Assembly (NCBI GenBank): GCA_016882305.1
Contig: VGQX01000008.1
Coordinates: 1 to 40,866, forward strand
From: Cyanobacteria bacterium K_Offshore_surface_m2_239
GTDB taxonomy: Bacteria > Cyanobacteriota > Cyanobacteriia > PCC-6307 > Cyanobiaceae
Direction: 5' to 3'
Length of the DNA stretch: 40,866 nucleotides
Under the pieces are notes generated by a model. The model was not told where the DNA came from and made no database searches. It saw only the letters and a program-made list of their open reading frames with translations. Position numbers and translations under genes: made by a program. Positions within the stretch are counted from its first letter, which is position 1, and each line of letters begins with the position of its first letter. Positions 2,232 to 10,369 of the stretch are shown here, one piece after another.

Positions 2232-3665
2232 TTAAAGGTAGACCTCTTCTTGTGGATAAGCTACCCGGTGTGGCATTGTTCTACCGTATATTGCAGAGAG
2301 CAGAAGCAAAATTCCCAAACGCCCCACGAACATGCCAACAATCAACACCAGCTGGCCCCATCGATTGAGCTGACTGGTCACGCCAACGTCCAGACCCACC
2401 GTGCAGAAGGCGGACATGCAGGTGAAAAGTTTCTCCAGAAACGTGAATTGACCTGTCATGCTCTCCTCCCCTCCCGCTGTTGGCCCAAGGCCCAGCAAGA
2501 GCGTCATCACAACCACAAACAATCCTGAAGCCACGGTGACTCCAACAGCCTTGAAAATCAATTCGGGCGCAATCCGACGCTGACGGATTACCACTTCTCG
2601 ACGATTGTCCAAGGTGGAGCGGGTGGCGCCAAGCAAGAGAGCAAGTGTTGTGGTTTTGATGCCGCCCCCTGTCCCCCCTGGGCTGGCGCCGATGAACATC
2701 AGGCCGATCATCAGCAGCAATCCCGCATCAGACAACGTTTCCTGAGACAACACCACCGTATTGAATCCCGCAGTACGTGTTGTGATGGATTGGAACAGCG
2801 TCACCTGAAGCTTGTCCCAAAGCGAAAGCTTGCTGATTACTCCATCGGTGGCGAATTGCTCGGTGAACAGCAAGCCAATCGCCCCGAGTGCAATCAGCAA
2901 GAAAGTGCTTCTCAGCACCAATCGTGTGTGCAGACTGAGGTTGCGCAAGCGACGCAGTCGGAACCGTTTAGTCCAGAGATCATTGGTCACCCGCCAGCCA
3001 ATGCCACCGATCACAATCAAGGCTCCGATCACACCGTTGACCACCGGTTGCGAGCGGTAGCTCACCAGGTTATCGCTGAAGAGACCGAAGCCAGCATTGT
3101 TGTAGGCGCTGATGCAATGGAAGAGCGAAGTCCAGAGTCGTGCCCCGGGATGTTCGATCTCTACAAAGCCAAAGCAGTAGAGGATCAGAGAGCCCAACCC
3201 CATGATGATGGCCGCCGTCAGCAGGATGGAATTGAAGGTTGGGCCGATGCCTCCCACGCCGAATTCATCGAGGGCGCGCCCACGATCCAGTCGGTGCTTG
3301 AGGCCCGATCGTCCCTGCACGAATCCCTGCAGAAAGGTGGTGATGGCCATCAATCCCAATCCGCCAACCACAATCAACCCCGCCAGCACCACCTGGCCCA
3401 ACAGGGTGAGCTCCTTGCCCACATCAATGATGGAAAGGCCCGTCACGGTGATCGCTGAGGTGACAGTGAACAGGGCTTCCCAGAGCCCGACGGAGTCCGA
3501 GGAACACGCCGGCGAAGCCAGGATCACGGTGCCGACACCGATCACAAGCAGGCCCGTCACCACCGTGAATTGCGGCACGGTGAGTTGGCGGCGCCATTGA
3601 TCCAGGCGGCCCAGGGCGTGCGTCAGCAGGGAGGCTGAGCTCACGGCATCAGAGGAAAAGCGCAC
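2232..3665 (-). CDS. ktrB: KtrB/TrkH-type potassium uptake channel subunit
   Basis: This is the pore subunit of a sodium-dependent K+ uptake system in the cytoplasmic membrane. The 477-residue protein shows the fourfold repeat of the superfamily, each with a pore loop carrying the selectivity-filter glycine: SAITVTGL, AYNNAGFGLF, TTRTAGFNT and FCTVGLDVG. A flexible Gly-rich segment (ASPGGTGGGIKTTT) in the third repeat matches the KtrB gating loop. The start is a GTG at 3665, only 4 bases from the start proposed for the divergent selD gene, so one or both true starts are probably further inside. No KtrA (RCK, NAD-binding) regulatory gene lies next to it; it must be elsewhere or absent. Confidence 0.9.
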   Translation of the reverse strand: MRFSSDAVSSASLLTHALGRLDQWRRQLTVPQFTVVTGLLVIGVGTVILASPACSSDSVGLWEALFTVTSAITVTGLSIIDVGKELTLLGQVVLAGLIVVGGLGLMAITTFLQGFVQGRSGLKHRLDRGRALDEFGVGGIGPTFNSILLTAAIIMGLGSLILYCFGFVEIEHPGARLWTSLFHCISAYNNAGFGLFSDNLVSYRSQPVVNGVIGALIVIGGIGWRVTNDLWTKRFRLRRLRNLSLHTRLVLRSTFLLIALGAIGLLFTEQFATDGVISKLSLWDKLQVTLFQSITTRTAGFNTVVLSQETLSDAGLLLMIGLMFIGASPGGTGGGIKTTTLALLLGATRSTLDNRREVVIRQRRIAPELIFKAVGVTVASGLFVVVMTLLLGLGPTAGGEESMTGQFTFLEKLFTCMSAFCTVGLDVGVTSQLNRWGQLVLIVGMFVGRLGILLLLSAIYGRTMPHRVAYPQEEVYL

Positions 3666-3669
3666 CCTA

Positions 3670-5889
3670 TTGAATGGCAGCGTCCCCCCCTCAGCCAGAC
3701 GCTTGGATTCCGGTCCCTGGCGCCACCACCTGCTCCTTGCCGGTGGCGGTCACACCCATGCCCTGGTGCTGCGCCGCTGGTTGATGCGTCCCCAGCTGCG
3801 CCCACCCGCCACCCGCATCTCCCTCATCAGCCGTCACAGCACCCTCTGTTACTCCGGACTGGTGCCGGCCGTTCTCGCGGGATTGGAGCCAGCCTCCAGC
3901 TGCCGGGTGGACCTCCGCCGCCTGTGTGCCCTGGCGGAGGTGGCCTTTGTGCGGGCGGACATCGTCGGCTTGGATCCCGACACCCGTCTTCTCAAGCTGC
4001 GGGGCCGCCCGCCCCTGGCCTTTGATCGCCTCAGCCTGGATGTCGGCGCCGTCACCGCCGCCGCCCCCGGAGAAACCGCTGTCAAACCTCTGGAGGGTCT
4101 GCTCGCCTGGGGTGATCGCCTCCCCGCCAGCGAACCGCGTCTCCGCGGTGGTGGAGCCTCGGCGCTGGAAGTGGCGCTGGCCCTGCGGGCTCGCGGCGTC
4201 CAGCCCCGGCTCCTGCTGCGCGGATCTGCACTCCATCTCGCCTCCCCCGCCGCCAATCGGCGCGCCGAGCAACTCCTGCGAGAGGCCGGCATCCCCGTGC
4301 GGCGCCAGGTCGACGCGACCCACCCCGCGGATTTGGCCTGCACGGGCGGTCGGGCGCCCGCCTGGCTCGCGGAGGGGGGCCTGCCGATTGATCCCGCCAG
4401 CGGCCGCGTGCTCACAGAGGCGACCCTGCAGGTGCGCGATCATCCCGCCCTCTTCGCGGCGGGCGATTGCGCGCTGATCGTCTCCCAGCCCCGGCCGCCC
4501 TCCGGTGTGTGGGCCGTCCGGGCGGCGCCGGTGCTCGCCACGAATCTGCGGCGCAGCCTGGAGAACCGGTCGTTGGCGTCCTGGCGACCGCAAGCGCTGG
4601 CGCTTCAGTTGTTGGGCGATGGGGGCGTCTGTGGCGTTCCCCGGGCCCTGGCGATCTGGGGACCCTTCGCCCTGGGGCCCCACCCTTGGCTCTGGCGCTG
4701 GAAGCGCCACCTGGACCACCGGTTCATGGCCAGCTTCGAGACGCTGCGCCCCATGACGCCCCCAGCGCCTGCGGCGAGTCCCGAAGCGGCATCCGATGTC
4801 CCTTCCGCCATGGGATGTCGGGGCTGCGCCGCCAAGCTCGCCGCAGCTCCCCTCCGCTCTGCGCTTACCCGTTTGGCGGCCCTGGATGGCAGTTCCGATC
4901 CCCCGGCTCCGGAGGACGCGCCGCTCCTGCGCCAGCTGGAGGACGGGCAGCGGCTGTTGCAGAGCGTGGACGGCTTCCCCGCCCTGGTGGCTGACCCCTG
5001 GCTCAATGGTCGCCTGACGACCCTCCATGCCTGCGGGGATCTCTGGGCCAGCGGTGCTGCGGTCGACTGCGCCCAGGTGGTAGTCACCATCCCCCGGGGA
5101 AGTCCGCGCCTCCAGGAGGAGCTGCTTCTGCAGACGCTCGCGGGGGTGCGGTCCGTATTGGATCCCCTTGGCGCGCCCCTGCTCGGGGGCCACACCCTGG
5201 AGGGCCGTGATGGCGCGGGTCTGGCGGTCATCCTGACCGTCAATGGCCTGGCGCACCAAAGCCGCCATTGGGGGAAGGGCCCCCTGGCAGCCGGCGACGT
5301 CTTGGTGTTGAGCCGGCCGATCGGCAGTGGTGTGCTGTTTGCCGCCGCCATGGCCGGCCTCCCCTGCGGACCCTGGCTGGATGACGCCCTGGCGCACCTG
5401 GAGCGGGAGCAGGCGGCGCTCGTTCCCCTGCTGGCGGCCCATGGGTGTCACGCTTGCACGGACATCACGGGGTTTGGCCTGTTGGGTCATCTCGGCGAGA
5501 TGCTGAGCGCCGCCCCGACCCCGCCGTCCGCAACGGCCCCGCGGCTGGTGGTGGAGCTGGAGGGTGGGGCCATTCCCGCTTTCCCTGGTGCTCTGGAGCT
5601 TCTCGCCGAAGGTCGGGCCAGCAGCTTGGCTCCCGCCAACGCCGAGGCCCTGCCGCTGTTGCGGAGGAGCGTCCGCTGGGTTGGGGTCGAGCCCCTGACC
5701 CCCGCTCGGGAGGGGTTGCTGATCGATCCCCAGACCTGCGGACCGCTGCTGGCCGCGCTCCCCGGCGCGCGGGCGACGGCGGCCCTGCGCGCCCTCCATC
5801 AGGCGGGCTTTCCGGAGGCCAGGGTCATCGCCCGTGTGCGATCCGAGCCCGAGGGGCATCCCGAGGCTGAACGGGAGGCTCTGGTCTGA
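3670..5889 (+). CDS. selD: FAD/NAD(P)-dependent oxidoreductase fused to selenide, water dikinase
   Basis: Residues 1 to about 365 form a pyridine-nucleotide-disulfide-type flavoprotein, with an FAD-binding LLLAGGGHTH (21-30) and a second FAD motif ALFAAGDCA (260-268). This matches the known N-terminal domain found fused to SelD. Residues from about 381 are SelD, which makes selenophosphate from selenide and ATP; its start GCRGCAAKL has the Cys-X2-Cys-X2-Lys arrangement seen in fused SelDs, in place of the Cys-Gly-Cys-Lys of E. coli. The fusion suggests that reduction to selenide and activation are coupled, which is inference. It converges on mnmH with only 3 bases between the stops. The TTG at 3670 is the outermost start; another TTG near 3703 is possible. 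Third positions are strongly GC-biased. Confidence 0.93.
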   Translation: MNGSVPPSARRLDSGPWRHHLLLAGGGHTHALVLRRWLMRPQLRPPATRISLISRHSTLCYSGLVPAVLAGLEPASSCRVDLRRLCALAEVAFVRADIVGLDPDTRLLKLRGRPPLAFDRLSLDVGAVTAAAPGETAVKPLEGLLAWGDRLPASEPRLRGGGASALEVALALRARGVQPRLLLRGSALHLASPAANRRAEQLLREAGIPVRRQVDATHPADLACTGGRAPAWLAEGGLPIDPASGRVLTEATLQVRDHPALFAAGDCALIVSQPRPPSGVWAVRAAPVLATNLRRSLENRSLASWRPQALALQLLGDGGVCGVPRALAIWGPFALGPHPWLWRWKRHLDHRFMASFETLRPMTPPAPAASPEAASDVPSAMGCRGCAAKLAAAPLRSALTRLAALDGSSDPPAPEDAPLLRQLEDGQRLLQSVDGFPALVADPWLNGRLTTLHACGDLWASGAAVDCAQVVVTIPRGSPRLQEELLLQTLAGVRSVLDPLGAPLLGGHTLEGRDGAGLAVILTVNGLAHQSRHWGKGPLAAGDVLVLSRPIGSGVLFAAAMAGLPCGPWLDDALAHLEREQAALVPLLAAHGCHACTDITGFGLLGHLGEMLSAAPTPPSATAPRLVVELEGGAIPAFPGALELLAEGRASSLAPANAEALPLLRRSVRWVGVEPLTPAREGLLIDPQTCGPLLAALPGARATAALRALHQAGFPEARVIARVRSEPEGHPEAEREALV

Positions 5890-5892
5890 GCG

Positions 5893-6957
5893 TCAGGGCC
5901 TCTGGACCTTGACCCGTCCTTCCCGCAACAGCAGATCCGCCGCCGCCTCAGCCGTGAGTTCCTCTAGATCCACGGTGGTCCTCTCCGCGTGGGCCGCAGT
6001 CTCGCGGTCATAACAGCGGTCGTAGTAGTCGAGCATCTGAGCGCAGGCCCGCTCCATCTCCCCTTGAGCGATGGCCTCCACCGCCGCCGCGGTGCGCTGG
6101 GGGCCCAAGCGCTTGCTGATGCGCAGGGTGGCCTCCGTCAGGGCCTCGGGATCCTGCGCGCCGTAGATCTCCACGAGATGACGCAAGCGTTCCTGGAGGG
6201 GTCGCCGTACCTCCAGCACGGGAGCGGTCCGCATCCGCCGCCACAGGCCTGCCGGGATGCGACAGCGACCCACCTGGGCACTCTCCGCCTCCAACCAGAG
6301 TTCGGCGGCCATGGCGGAACGCCGCAGCACCGCAGCGAGGCGATTCTCAAAGTGCTCCCCGCTGGGCTGAGCGGGCTGGCCGAGCCCGCCGAAGCTGCTG
6401 CCGCGATGGTGAGCCAGCCCCTCCAGATCCACCACGGCCACCCCTCGGGCGGCGAGGGCGAGCAACAACGCGGTTTTGCCTGTGCCGGTGCGTCCCCCCA
6501 GCAGCCGCAGCGGCCAGGGCTGTTCCATCATCGCCAGCACCCACCGCCGATAGGCCTTGTAGCCCCCCTCCAGCAGCACGACCGGAAGGTCCAGGGTCGA
6601 GGCCAGCCAGGCGACGCTGCCGGAGCGCAGACCGCCACGCCAGCAATGCAGCCGCAGGGGATGGTCCGGCGCCTGGTCGCGAGCGGCGATGAGCTGGTCG
6701 GCCAGGTCCGCCAGGCGTGGGCCGACCCTGGCGAGACCCCGATGGACGGCCCGCTGGCGGCCGGCGTGCTTGTAGAGGGTACCGACTTCAGCGCGCTCCG
6801 CGTCGCTGAACAGGGGGAGATTGCGGGCGCCCGGGATGTGGCCCTGTTCAAATTCCGCGGGGGTGCGCACATCCAGCAGCGTCCCCTTGCCCTCCAGAAA
6901 GTCCTCGATCGGGATGGATGTCATGCGCAAGGGGAGGTCACCGGTGTGAATGGTCAT
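5893..6957 (-). CDS. mnmH: tRNA 2-selenouridine(34) synthase
   Basis: MnmH (SelU/YbbB) replaces the sulfur of 2-thiouridine at the wobble position of certain tRNAs with selenium from selenophosphate, the product of the neighbouring SelD. An N-terminal rhodanese domain holds LLDVRTPAEFEQGHIPGA and the catalytic loop LHCWRGGLRSGS, with the active Cys at about residue 105. A C-terminal P-loop domain contains GGRTGTGKT at about 154-162. Length, about 354, is normal for the family. The frame extends to an ATG at 6990, but the ATG at 6957 follows an AGGAG and fits the family better; an ATG at 6924 is also possible. It overlaps no neighbour and diverges from the transporter operon. Confidence 0.94.
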   Translation of the reverse strand: MTIHTGDLPLRMTSIPIEDFLEGKGTLLDVRTPAEFEQGHIPGARNLPLFSDAERAEVGTLYKHAGRQRAVHRGLARVGPRLADLADQLIAARDQAPDHPLRLHCWRGGLRSGSVAWLASTLDLPVVLLEGGYKAYRRWVLAMMEQPWPLRLLGGRTGTGKTALLLALAARGVAVVDLEGLAHHRGSSFGGLGQPAQPSGEHFENRLAAVLRRSAMAAELWLEAESAQVGRCRIPAGLWRRMRTAPVLEVRRPLQERLRHLVEIYGAQDPEALTEATLRISKRLGPQRTAAAVEAIAQGEMERACAQMLDYYDRCYDRETAAHAERTTVDLEELTAEAAADLLLREGRVKVQRP

Positions 6958-7028
6958 CGCTGCCCCAGCTCCTGGCCGGCAAAAGTCCATCCGTAAAGTG
7001 CCATGAGTCTTTTCCCCTGGGAGGATCG

Positions 7029-7967
7029 ATGCGGCGTCGCCGGTTTACACGATTCGCCACATTCGCGCTCTGTCTCGCCGGGCTGGCGGGTCTGGGCCTG
7101 CCGCGCTCCGCAGGAACCGTGGCGGCCGCCTCACCCTCTGGAGGGTCCCCCCCGGTCCTCCGGATGAGCGCCATTCCGGATCAGAATCCGGAAAAGCTCA
7201 ACCGGCTCTACCCGCTGGTGGCCCGGGTGCTCTCCCGGCAGCTTGGCGTTCCCGTGCGCTACGTGCCGATGGTGGACTACGCGGCGGCGGTCAGCGCCTT
7301 CCGCACCGGCGATCTGGATCTGGTCTGGTTCGGCGGGCTGACGGGCGTGCAGGCTCGCCTTCTCAAGCCTGGCGCCCGCGTGATCGCCCAACGGGACATC
7401 GACGCCAACTTTCGCAGCGTCTTCATCGCCAATCCCGGCAGCGGCCTGAGGCCCTTCGTGCCGATGAAGGGTTTGACAGCCCTGCGCGGCAAGCGCTTCA
7501 CCTTCGGCTCCGAGAGTTCCACCTCCGGCCGGCTGATGCCCCAGTGGTTCCTGGCCCAGGCCGGCGTGCAACCACGGGATTTCGCCGGCGGGGCCCCGGG
7601 CTTCAGCGGCAGCCATGACGCCACCATCGCTCTGGTGCAGAGCGGTGCCTATGAGGCCGGCGTGGTCAACGAGCAGGTGTGGCGCAGCAGCCTGCGCAGT
7701 GGCAAGGCCAATCGCGCCAAGGTCTTTCTCCTCTGGACAACCCCGGGCTATCCCGATTACCACTGGCTGGCCCAGCCCAATCTGGATCGACGCTTCGCGC
7801 CGGGCTTCACAGACAAGATCCGCGCGTCCATCCTCAGCTGGCGGCAGAAGGATCCCGAGCAGAAGATCATTCTTGAACTTTTCGGCGCTCAGCAATTCAC
7901 CACAGCCCGTCCGGAGGACTACAAGCGCATTGAAAGCATCGGACGGCAGATCGGCCTGATTCGCTGA
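7029..7967 (+). CDS. ABC transporter substrate-binding protein, PhnD-like, putative selenate binder
   Basis: This 312-residue secreted protein has a basic and hydrophobic signal peptide over roughly residues 1-35 (MRRRRF... to ...TVAAAS). A PhnD-type periplasmic binding domain follows, beginning LRMSAIPDQNPEKLNRLYP, with FRTGDLDLVWFGGLTGVQA, FRSVFIANPGS, FTFGSESSTSGRLMPQ and AGVVNEQVW. A subgroup of this fold is assigned to selenate uptake because it co-occurs with SelD, and the location beside selD and mnmH fits that group better than phosphonate. Substrate is inferred, not shown. The ATG at 7029 follows GGAGG at 4 bases and excludes an upstream extension of the frame. ATPase and permease genes follow in the same direction. 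Confidence 0.9.
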   Translation: MRRRRFTRFATFALCLAGLAGLGLPRSAGTVAAASPSGGSPPVLRMSAIPDQNPEKLNRLYPLVARVLSRQLGVPVRYVPMVDYAAAVSAFRTGDLDLVWFGGLTGVQARLLKPGARVIAQRDIDANFRSVFIANPGSGLRPFVPMKGLTALRGKRFTFGSESSTSGRLMPQWFLAQAGVQPRDFAGGAPGFSGSHDATIALVQSGAYEAGVVNEQVWRSSLRSGKANRAKVFLLWTTPGYPDYHWLAQPNLDRRFAPGFTDKIRASILSWRQKDPEQKIILELFGAQQFTTARPEDYKRIESIGRQIGLIR

Positions 7968-7977
7968 GCGCAGGCCC

Positions 7978-8730
7978 ATGGACCCTCTGCTGGCCCTGGA
8001 GGGCATCACCGTGCGGGGTCGTGACCAGCCCAGGTTGCGTCAGGTGAGTCTTTCCCTGTGGCCCGGGGAGCGTGTGGCCCTTCTCGGGCCCAGTGGCGCG
8101 GGCAAAAGCACCCTCCTCGCCGTGGCCAACGGCCTGCTCCCCCCCGACGCGGGCCACGTTCGCTGGGAGGGAGTGCCCCCCGCCCGTTCTCGCCGAGCAC
8201 GCCGCCGCCAACAGGCCCGCATCGGCACGCTCTGGCAGGACCTCCGCCTGATCGAGGAGCTGAACGTGCAGCAAAACCTCAACGCCGCGCGGCTGGCCGA
8301 TTGGAGCTGGCCCAAGGCCTGGCTCAACCTGCTCGTTCCCCTGGACACGGACGCCAACGCCGCCGCCCTCGCCTGGGTTGACCTGGAGGCCGCGCTGCTG
8401 CCGAGGGCCGTGGCGGAGCTGTCCGGCGGTCAGCGCCAACGGGTGGCGATCGCTCGCCTGCTGCGTCAGGAGGCTCAGTTGTGGTTGCTCGACGAACCCC
8501 TCGCCAGCCTGGACCCCCGACGCGCTCAGGAGGTGTTGGCGTTGCTCCTGCGGCTTGGCCAGGCGCCCAGGGCTGTCCTGCTGTCGTTGCATCGCCCGGA
8601 TCTCTTGGCGGGATTTGATCGGGTCCTCGGCCTGCGCCAGGGGACCCTGTGGTTCGACGTCCCGGCCTCCTCGCTCATGCCCTCCCAGTTGGAGGCTCTC
8701 TACGCCGGCGCCCCCCCCGCCGATGGCTGA
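7978..8730 (+). CDS. ABC transporter ATP-binding protein, PhnC-like, putative selenate importer
   Basis: This cytoplasmic ATPase powers the importer formed with its two neighbours. The 250 residues contain Walker A LLGPSGAGKST, a Q-loop (LWQDLRL), the ABC signature LSGGQRQRVAIARLL, Walker B LWLLDEPLASLDP and the switch His in LLSLHRP. The gene starts 10 bases after the binding-protein stop and overlaps the permease gene by 8 bases, so the three are one transcription unit. Family proteins of this size include phosphonate and putative selenate importers; context favours selenium. One HIP1-type octamer (8446-8453) lies inside the gene. Confidence 0.93.
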   Translation: MDPLLALEGITVRGRDQPRLRQVSLSLWPGERVALLGPSGAGKSTLLAVANGLLPPDAGHVRWEGVPPARSRRARRRQQARIGTLWQDLRLIEELNVQQNLNAARLADWSWPKAWLNLLVPLDTDANAAALAWVDLEAALLPRAVAELSGGQRQRVAIARLLRQEAQLWLLDEPLASLDPRRAQEVLALLLRLGQAPRAVLLSLHRPDLLAGFDRVLGLRQGTLWFDVPASSLMPSQLEALYAGAPPADG

Positions 8731-10369
8731 CACCCGCCCGATCCCCCTTGAGGCTCCGGCCCGCTGGCCTCCGGCGGCTCCCCTGCTCCCCCTCCTCCCC
8801 GCCCTGGTGGTCCTGCCGGTCCTTCTCGTCCTGCCCGGGCAGGTGCACGCGGGAGGGTGGGATCTCGTTGGCCGTTTTCTTCTGGCGGCCCTGCGTCCCT
8901 CCGCCGACCCCCTGGTCTGGCGCTCCGCTGTCGAGGGCTTGGCCATCACCCTGGGCATGGCCCTCCTCGGCTGGACAACCAGCCTGCTCGGTGGGTTGCT
9001 GCTGGGTTGTGCCAGCTCCCGCACCCTTTGGCGGCAGACCGCAGGGCAGCTCTGGCCTGCCAGCGCTCTGCGGCGCCTCCTGGCCCTTCCCCGTTCGCTC
9101 CACGAGCTTCTGTGGGGATTGCTGCTGCTGCAGCTTCTCGGGCTGCGCCCCGTGGTCGCGGTTGTGGCGATCGCCCTTCCCTACAGCGCGCTGGTGGCGC
9201 GGGTGTTGGCGGATCAGCTCGATGGCTTGGACACCTCCCGCCTGGAGGCGCTCCGCTGTGCGGGCGCCAGCGCCCCCGCCGCCCTGCTGACAGCCCTCGG
9301 CCCCGCCCTGCTGCCGGGGTTGCTCAGCTACGGGGGCTATCGCCTGGAATGCGCCCTGCGCAGCGCCACGCTGTTGGGCGTGTTCGGGTTGGGCGGGCTG
9401 GGCACCGAGCTGCGGCTCACTCTGCAATCCCTGGAATTTCGCGAGCTCTGGTGCGGTCTCTGGGTCCTTCTCGGCGCCATGCTCCTTTTGGAGGGTGGTC
9501 TGGCGGCCCTGCGTCGTCGCTGGCTGTCCCCCCGCCGGCTGCGCTTGGCCCCGTCCGGCGATCGACCAACGCGTCCGCTGGCCGCGGGGGGGCGGGAACT
9601 GCTCCTGGTGGCTGTGCTCCTCCCGCTGCTCTGCTGGTGGGTGGGCGGAGCCTTGGGGGTGCGTCCCGGGGATCTGGTGGCGGTTCAACCCTTGCCTCCT
9701 CTGGGCACACCCGACTGGGAGGCCATGCTCAGCCTGCCCTGGGCCACCCTGATCTCCAGCACCCTGGCCCTGACCCTCCTCTCCGGAGCTCTGGCGGTTG
9801 GCCTGGCACCGCTTCTTCTGCTTCTGGTGGCCCCATGGCCCCGGGCTCGCTGGGTGGTGCGTCTGATCTGGGCCCTGGGCCGCCTCTGGCCGCCGCCTCT
9901 GACCGCCTTGCTGCTCCTGTTTCTCTTGCGTCCGGGCCTGCTCACGGCGGCCCTGGCCCTGGGCTTTCACAATCTGGGCATTCTCGGCCGACTCCTGCTG
10001 GAAGGACTGGAGGAGGCCCCGTCGGGTCCGCCGCAGGCCTTGGCCTTGTTGGGTGCCGGTCCTCGCTTGAGCCTCCTCTACGGCTCCCTCAGCGCCGTCG
10101 CCCATCCTTATCTGGCCTACGGGGCTTATCGCACCGATGTGATCCTGCGGGAGACGGTGGTGGTGGGTTTGGTGGGCGCGACCGGGTTGGGCAGCCAACT
10201 GCTGGAGAGTCTCAGCGCCTTCGCCTGGGAGCGCATCCTGGCCCTGGTGGTGGTCTATGCCACTCTCACCCTGCTGGGGGAGGAGCTGGCGGATCGCCTG
10301 AGGCGGCGGCTGCTCTCCAGGCCCGTGGCTCCATCCCTTCCAGTGTCCCCAGCCTTGTCAGATCCTTAA
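8723..10369 (+). CDS. ABC transporter permease, two fused PhnE-like domains
   Basis: The 548-residue integral membrane protein contains two complete inner-membrane permease domains in tandem, each about 250 residues. Each has an EAA-type coupling loop: ALRCAGASAPAALLTALGPA in the first half, and ALALLGAGPRLSLLYGSLSA in the second. Two permease halves on one chain would satisfy the importer's need for a dimer. The frame is open from 8378, but the upstream part is the ATPase gene in another frame; ATG at 8723 overlaps the ATPase stop by 8 bases, as expected for translational coupling. It completes the putative selenate importer. Repeated Leu stretches make its composition extreme. Confidence 0.9.
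   Translation: MADTRPIPLEAPARWPPAAPLLPLLPALVVLPVLLVLPGQVHAGGWDLVGRFLLAALRPSADPLVWRSAVEGLAITLGMALLGWTTSLLGGLLLGCASSRTLWRQTAGQLWPASALRRLLALPRSLHELLWGLLLLQLLGLRPVVAVVAIALPYSALVARVLADQLDGLDTSRLEALRCAGASAPAALLTALGPALLPGLLSYGGYRLECALRSATLLGVFGLGGLGTELRLTLQSLEFRELWCGLWVLLGAMLLLEGGLAALRRRWLSPRRLRLAPSGDRPTRPLAAGGRELLLVAVLLPLLCWWVGGALGVRPGDLVAVQPLPPLGTPDWEAMLSLPWATLISSTLALTLLSGALAVGLAPLLLLLVAPWPRARWVVRLIWALGRLWPPPLTALLLLFLLRPGLLTAALALGFHNLGILGRLLLEGLEEAPSGPPQALALLGAGPRLSLLYGSLSAVAHPYLAYGAYRTDVILRETVVVGLVGATGLGSQLLESLSAFAWERILALVVVYATLTLLGEELADRLRRRLLSRPVAPSLPVSPALSDP

Follow-up and report, generated by a model that had tools for sequence, protein, structure and literature searches.

We analyzed contig VGQX01000008.1 (40,866 nucleotides, hereafter the window; contig C8 of a cyanobacterial draft genome of 3.52 Mb and 95.6% completeness), in which genes for a flavoprotein-SelD fusion, the tRNA 2-selenouridine synthase MnmH and a three-gene PhnDCE-like importer lie side by side at positions 3670-10369. 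Judging from sequence, we put at about 0.77 the probability that the importer takes up a selenium oxyanion and that the block moves selenium to tRNA. In the proposed route the oxyanion, with selenite likelier than selenate, would enter through the PhnDCE-type importer, which shares its family with picocyanobacterial PhnD1C1E1; the cell would reduce the oxyanion to selenide, possibly with the help of the FAD domain that is fused to SelD; and the SelD domain would convert selenide with ATP to selenophosphate. MnmH uses selenophosphate, and selenium would pass from outside the cell to the tRNA through the block. Which ion is transported, what the FAD domain does and that selenium flows along this route at all are inferences from the evidence set out below. 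We also give little more than even odds to a further reading, in which PhnDCE1, in both Prochlorococcus and Synechococcus, is dedicated to the high-affinity import of selenite, its phosphite-type pocket serving this similarly shaped ion.

Selenium genes, family of the binding protein and co-occurrence

The binding protein scored 303.2 bits against TIGR04553, annotated as a 'putative selenate' binding protein (cut-off 250), 149.3 bits against the broad model TIGR01098, and 103.6 bits against the PhnD model TIGR03431, well below its cut-off of 261.1. An earlier note on this DNA had proposed such a comparison of selenate-type with phosphonate- and phosphite-type profiles, and the outcome favors it. 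What that note missed is that the binding protein belongs with PhnD1: its nearest named relatives are from Cyanobium and Synechococcus, and its best solved relatives are 7s6g (379 bits), which is PhnD1 of Synechococcus MITS9220, and 5lq5 (310 bits), which is PhnD1 of Prochlorococcus MIT9301. Both crystallized proteins are themselves members of TIGR04553 (338.6 and 303.0 bits, respectively), and two PtxB proteins fall below its cut-off (166.4 and 152.2 bits). Thus, PhnD1 belongs to the selenate-annotated family. The note's assignment of the importer to a selenate type therefore held for the family and not for the ion: 'selenate' is a label given by annotation, not a measured property, since the ligands known for the solved PhnD1 members are phosphite, phosphate and methylphosphonate (PMC10284923, PMC5700983), and the pocket, as described below, points to selenite.

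The SelD fusion scored 813.5 bits against TIGR04369 (cut-off 700), and its residues 382-699 scored 165.2 bits against the SelD model TIGR00476 (cut-off 125). Its SelD domain keeps the Cys-x-x-Lys motif as CAAK, a motif kept in all 12 aligned SelD fusions of the window's own family, as well as the Asp positions in EDA, VDG and GDLWA, and it contains TDITGFG; the roles of the catalytic Cys and Lys and of the metal/ATP Asp residues are assumed from E. coli SelD. Because the SelD cut-off is passed and the catalytic Cys, Lys and Asp are kept, we treat the domain as a probable working SelD. MnmH scored 389.6 bits against NF008750, over its cut-off, and 357.7 bits against TIGR03167 (cut-off 219.75), and its translation holds CWRGG and GGRTGTGKT, which we take to be the rhodanese Cys and the P-loop. 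One cyanobacterial genome (G141) carries a SelD fusion that lacks the catalytic Cys (L089, G141:C1:2450000-2454000) together with no MnmH match, which suggests decay of the fusion after loss of MnmH. A 2005 paper had already described the fusion in cyanobacteria, where it co-occurs with ybbB (mnmH) (PMC1273633), and in later work the selenouridine trait has been described in many cyanobacteria, with no selenoproteins found (PMC5322559).

We then scored 195 cyanobacterial genomes, filtered to at least 90% completeness, for the three families. The substrate-binding protein (SBP) of the importer was over its cut-off in 81 genomes and MnmH and SelD in 107 each; all three occurred together in 80 genomes and none of them in 86. 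Every importer genome carried MnmH (81/81) and all except one carried SelD (80/81), and the importer was found in none of the 88 genomes without MnmH. The four genomes outside the main patterns held SelD only (G137 and G141), MnmH only (G038), or MnmH and the importer (G151); in G137, MnmH is present as two pieces below the cut-off, and in G151 the MnmH over the cut-off is a partial match. The best TIGR04553 score per genome was bimodal, at least 298 bits and then at most 237 bits, and the 237-bit match, a partial one in G009, may belong to a truncated member of the family. The within-family exact product for the importer falling only on MnmH genomes was 1.7e-10, a figure that treats genomes of one family as exchangeable and leaves relatedness inside families in place. 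As controls, MnmH was present in 18 of the 62 genomes with only sub-cut-off TIGR04553 matches and in 8 of the 52 without any match.

Gene neighborhoods of the importer

Linkage was read in the best 80 of 578 relatives, many of whose loci are cut by contig ends; the names aminotransferase-like and tesA-like were read from sequences, with tesA used as in PMC10284923. The window has the arrangement selD>-<mnmH-phnDCE>. A neighboring mnmH was found in 26 of these 80 relatives, upstream as in the window in 23 and between phnE and the tesA-like gene in 3, and selD was also found in 19 of the 23 with the upstream form. In the stretches searched of the window and these 23 relatives there was no tesA-like match; all of them have mnmH. 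Furthermore, two members of one distant cyanobacterial genus carry selD, mnmH and phnDCE on one strand, and a plasmid of the betaproteobacterium Sphaerotilus sulfidivorans carries a five-gene operon, mnmH-ATPase-permease-SBP-selD. The plasmid search gave 17 matches above 40% identity, and among the six neighborhoods read, selenium genes lay within 8 kb in Sphaerotilus only. On one quick single-gene SBP tree, linked and unlinked states changed at least 7 times; strongly supported branches require 3 changes for the form with mnmH downstream and 2 for that with mnmH upstream. The count omits 11 rows whose context is of another kind and 2 that were unplaced, many forks are weak, and some of the changes may be losses.

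The neighborhoods varied in other respects. Several relatives have genes inserted between phnD and phnC, which by eye encode a ChaN-like protein, a cation efflux (CDF-like) transporter and others; insertions were seen downstream of the SBP gene in L137, L142, L148, L149, L151, L153, L155 and L157, the efflux gene also in L139 and L152, and these inserted genes showed no clear tie to selenium. In L049-L060 the aminotransferase-like gene lies directly 5' of phnD, overlapping it in some loci, which is the standard arrangement. Within the fetched 12-16 kb, neither an ATPase nor a permease gene was detected beside the family's binding protein in L065, L066 and L068, and only an ATPase gene in L063. 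A Cyanobium-like selenium cluster occurs in a record titled Bifidobacterium breve (L123, CALPNT020000008.1), probably a mislabeled or contaminated bin, and an importer relative without selD or mnmH within 8 kb occurs in NZ_AP026896.1 (L175), which is called a plasmid and, at 4.94 Mb, is the size of a chromosome. Viral carriage of the importer was rejected, as a scan of viral contigs gave 30 pattern matches, none of them a relative.

The ligand pocket and alternative explanations

Hydrogen selenite carries three oxygens, with a lone pair where a fourth would sit, and can be protonated around neutral pH; selenate carries four and is fully deprotonated at natural pH. The ligand residues of 7S6G (Y44, S124, T125, S126, H156, D203 and Y204) correspond to Y84, S164, T165, S166, H196, D243 and Y244 of the window's binding protein, and all are conserved. 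Two aligned PtxB proteins have Tyr and Gln where the window's protein has Phe128 and Asp243, and among cyanobacterial sequences the Phe is kept in 107 of 107 and the Asp in 89 of 107. These distinguishing positions have been described as F90/D205, with the Asp suggesting a mono-protonated ligand, and in the PhnD1 pocket a hydrogen-bond network holds three oxygens and a tyrosine caps the fourth position (PMC5700983). Phosphate, with its fourth oxygen, is bound by Prochlorococcus PhnD1 ~3500-fold more weakly than phosphite. Because the pocket suits a singly protonated three-oxygen anion, it would fit selenite better than the annotated selenate, a call that is weaker than that of a selenium oxyanion. 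Two points tell against selenite: the pocket argument is not absolute, because the Asp is replaced by Asn in 18 of the 107 cyanobacterial sequences, and selenite is without the hydrogen for the phosphite-style P-H to ring contact. Uptake of selenate, a variant inside our explanation, would agree with the TIGR04553 annotation; given the three-oxygen pocket, the capping tyrosine, the Asp suggestive of a mono-protonated ligand and the weaker binding of phosphate (PMC5700983, PMC10284923), as well as the charge of selenate noted above, we regard it as possible though doubtful.

Published work on PhnD1 concerns phosphorus. Its dissociation constants (KD) are 0.05-4.3 µM for phosphite and 7-182 µM for phosphate (PMC5700983, PMC10284923), a phosphite preference of ~6- to 3500-fold depending on protein and method (Table 1, PMC10284923), and methylphosphonate is bound weakly or not at all (PMC10284923). 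Every one of the 97 picocyanobacterial genomes in one database holds a PhnD1-type binding protein, neither phosphite nor methylphosphonate supported exponential growth of strains WH8102 and MITS9220, and phosphorus starvation did not induce the phn genes; the authors called the presence of PhnDCE1 'paradoxical' and proposed a constitutive phosphate transporter (PMC10284923). The in vivo function of PhnDCE was stated as unknown (PMC5700983). The string 'selen' does not occur in the main texts, the part searched, of PMC10284923, PMC5700983 and PMC8786288, and no link of PhnD1 or of this importer family with selenium was found in the open-licence literature searched.

Several observations weigh against a selenium importer. 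In vitro, phosphite, phosphate and methylphosphonate are all ligands of PhnD1, which moreover co-purified with phosphate, and the E. coli Phn system is cited as supporting growth on phosphate (PMC10284923). A 'phosphonate/selenate' protein of P. putida, known by that label only, rose from 0.31% of the exoproteome in the presence of phosphate to 0.96% in its absence, and PstS1 in the same comparison from 0.33% to 2.68% (PMC9426549). The importer is missing from 25 of the 105 genomes with SelD and MnmH. Its coupling to MnmH is looser among 250 genomes of the window's family, which by hand tally comprise 231 with the importer, 238 with MnmH, 15 with MnmH alone and 4 with neither; 8 have the importer without MnmH over the cut-off, 4 of them with partial MnmH matches. 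Missing sequence may explain some of these cases, because the genomes are drafts of 90-99% completeness; in six genomes of genus g111, where importer matches are only weak, the importer looks truly lost. Among the 80 named loci, 52 have an aminotransferase-like and/or tesA-like neighbor and no selenium genes (2 have neither), and in all 12 loci read in the window's family the importer lies between aminotransferase-like and tesA-like genes. Four Rhodobacterales and one Aeromonas have the importer or a close relative with no selD or mnmH within 8 kb. Finally, one usual SelD Asn is His in cyanobacterial fusions generally, and the NCBIfam name of the fusion family is 'fusion_not_SelD'.

Part of this evidence fits the constitutive medium-affinity phosphate transporter of Shah et al. 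(2023), which perhaps recycles phospholipid phosphate with TesA and whose selenium neighbors would be incidental. Phosphate KD values of 7-88 µM for four Synechococcus PhnD1 proteins, the phosphate in the 7S6G crystal and the capacity of E. coli Phn to carry phosphate (PMC10284923) agree with it, as does the tesA-like neighbor in the 12 family loci. All cyanobacteria need phosphate, yet among the 195 genomes the importer is confined to those with MnmH (81/81 versus 0/88); the window and its 23 upstream-linked relatives have mnmH and, in the stretches searched, no tesA-like match; and PhnD1 prefers phosphite and is not induced by phosphorus starvation. We consider this transporter unlikely. An importer of phosphite or a simple phosphonate would account for the KD of 0.05 to 4.3 µM for phosphite, and leaves the restriction to MnmH genomes unexplained; the two Synechococcus strains did not grow exponentially on phosphite or methylphosphonate, and the genome has no match to the C-P lyase protein PhnJ (PF06007; the phosphite dehydrogenase PtxD was not searched). 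We judge it highly improbable, and phosphonate use was rejected on the PhnD score together with the missing PhnJ. It is also very unlikely that the fused domain is not a selenophosphate synthetase: besides the family name and the Asn-to-His change, its TIGR00476 score is modest (165 bits here and 127-194 in the family, compared to 254-323 in full-length fusions outside it), but it passes the SelD cut-off, keeps the catalytic Cys, Lys and Asp, and co-occurs with MnmH. Uptake of a selenium oxyanion by an importer that serves MnmH remains our preferred explanation.

The locus, selenium use in the genome and known systems

All five genes of the block are present and open, with the identities that the earlier note had given them. 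Its description of the block as a compact unit stood in that the genes adjoin; mnmH, however, is transcribed against its neighbors, convergent with selD and divergent from phnD, and the selD-mnmH-phnDCE block is not a single operon here. The mnmH/phnD gap is 38 to 104 bases, set by the choice of MnmH start, and the permease gene overlaps the ATPase gene by 8 bases. For the binding protein we prefer a start at ~7029 over the first ATG at 6918, because the N-terminus there is signal-like. The best NCBIfam match of the ATPase was TIGR02315 at 158.6 bits, below the cut-off of 266.1, and the permease scored 229.9 bits against TIGR01097 (cut-off 216.7) in two stretches, on the longer frame from 8378. 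Upstream lie a psbA-like gene for a D1 protein, recognized by eye (636-1715, +), and a TrkH-type potassium transporter gene (2232-3665, -; Pfam TrkH), which is read from the other strand and begins only 4 bases away from the SelD fusion.

Table 1. Gene calls in the block, in window coordinates
Feature	Position	Strand	Basis
FAD/NAD(P) oxidoreductase-SelD fusion	3670-5889	+	739 aa, TTG start; TIGR04369, TIGR00476
MnmH, tRNA 2-selenouridine synthase	5893-6990 (true start may be 6924)	-	NF008750, TIGR03167
Substrate-binding protein, apparent signal peptide, TIGR04553/PhnD1 family	7029-7967	+	TIGR04553, 7s6g, 5lq5
ABC ATPase, PhnC-like	7978-8730	+	ABC_tran 113.6 bits
Double (fused) PhnE-like permease, 548 aa	8723-10369	+	TIGR01097; frame and start checked
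Divergent mnmH/phnD gap	6991-7028 (6925-7028 if MnmH starts at 6924)		starts of mnmH and phnD

The earlier note had also proposed a genome search for selA, selB and selC and suggested that the tRNA base may be selenium's only use, a suggestion that stands in this draft. The draft genome gave 0 matches to selA; 6 matches to SelB, none over the cut-off, as in 12 of 14 control genomes; and 12 matches to tRNA-Sec, none over the threshold, the best 8 of which are Ser, Leu and Gly tRNAs (ARAGORN). YqeB (TIGR03309), a marker of Se-dependent molybdenum hydroxylases, had 0 matches in the genome (YqeC was not searched), and the best match to TIGR04348, which we take to be the model of the selenoneine protein SenB, reached 28.8 bits against a cut-off of 300 (SenA was not searched). 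With every marker searched for other uses of selenium below its cut-off, this bacterium probably uses the element in the tRNA base alone, as far as a draft estimated to lack ~4% of the genome can show.

The gene families and the selenium annotation of the importer were already known. As far as our searches show, the new points are that this annotation is joined to PhnD1, that the importer is nested in MnmH genomes, that the linkage recurs, and that the pocket gives an argument for selenite. A 2022 review states that no high-affinity selenium transport system has been identified (PMC9312934), and the genome evidence joins the PhnDCE puzzle and the missing selenium transporter in one testable answer. 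If this answer is true, the transporter would be reassigned as one of the first dedicated importers of selenium to be known, its genes would allow the uptake of selenium by ocean phototrophs to be traced, and selenium in tRNA would count as a core micronutrient trait of the ocean's most abundant phototrophs.

Among known systems, picocyanobacterial PhnD1/PhnDCE1 (PDB 7S6G, 5LQ5/5LQ8) is like the window's importer in NCBIfam family, over the cut-off, and in its conserved ligand residues; it differs in standing in the literature as a phosphorus transporter beside tesA, whereas the window's importer lies beside mnmH and selD. The TIGR04553 putative selenate-binding proteins include the window's protein at 303.2 bits, but their selenate label is a prediction and the pocket points to selenite. 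PtxB is related in sequence to the window's binding protein and shares most oxygen-binding residues, but has Tyr/Gln where the window's family has Phe/Asp and scores below the TIGR04553 cut-off. The cyanobacterial NADH dehydrogenase-like SelD fusion described by Romero (2005; PMC1273633) is a fusion of the same kind, occurring with ybbB in Prochlorococcus and Synechococcus; there, selD and ybbB were described as not contiguous in cyanobacteria, whereas in the window they are contiguous and an importer is added to them.

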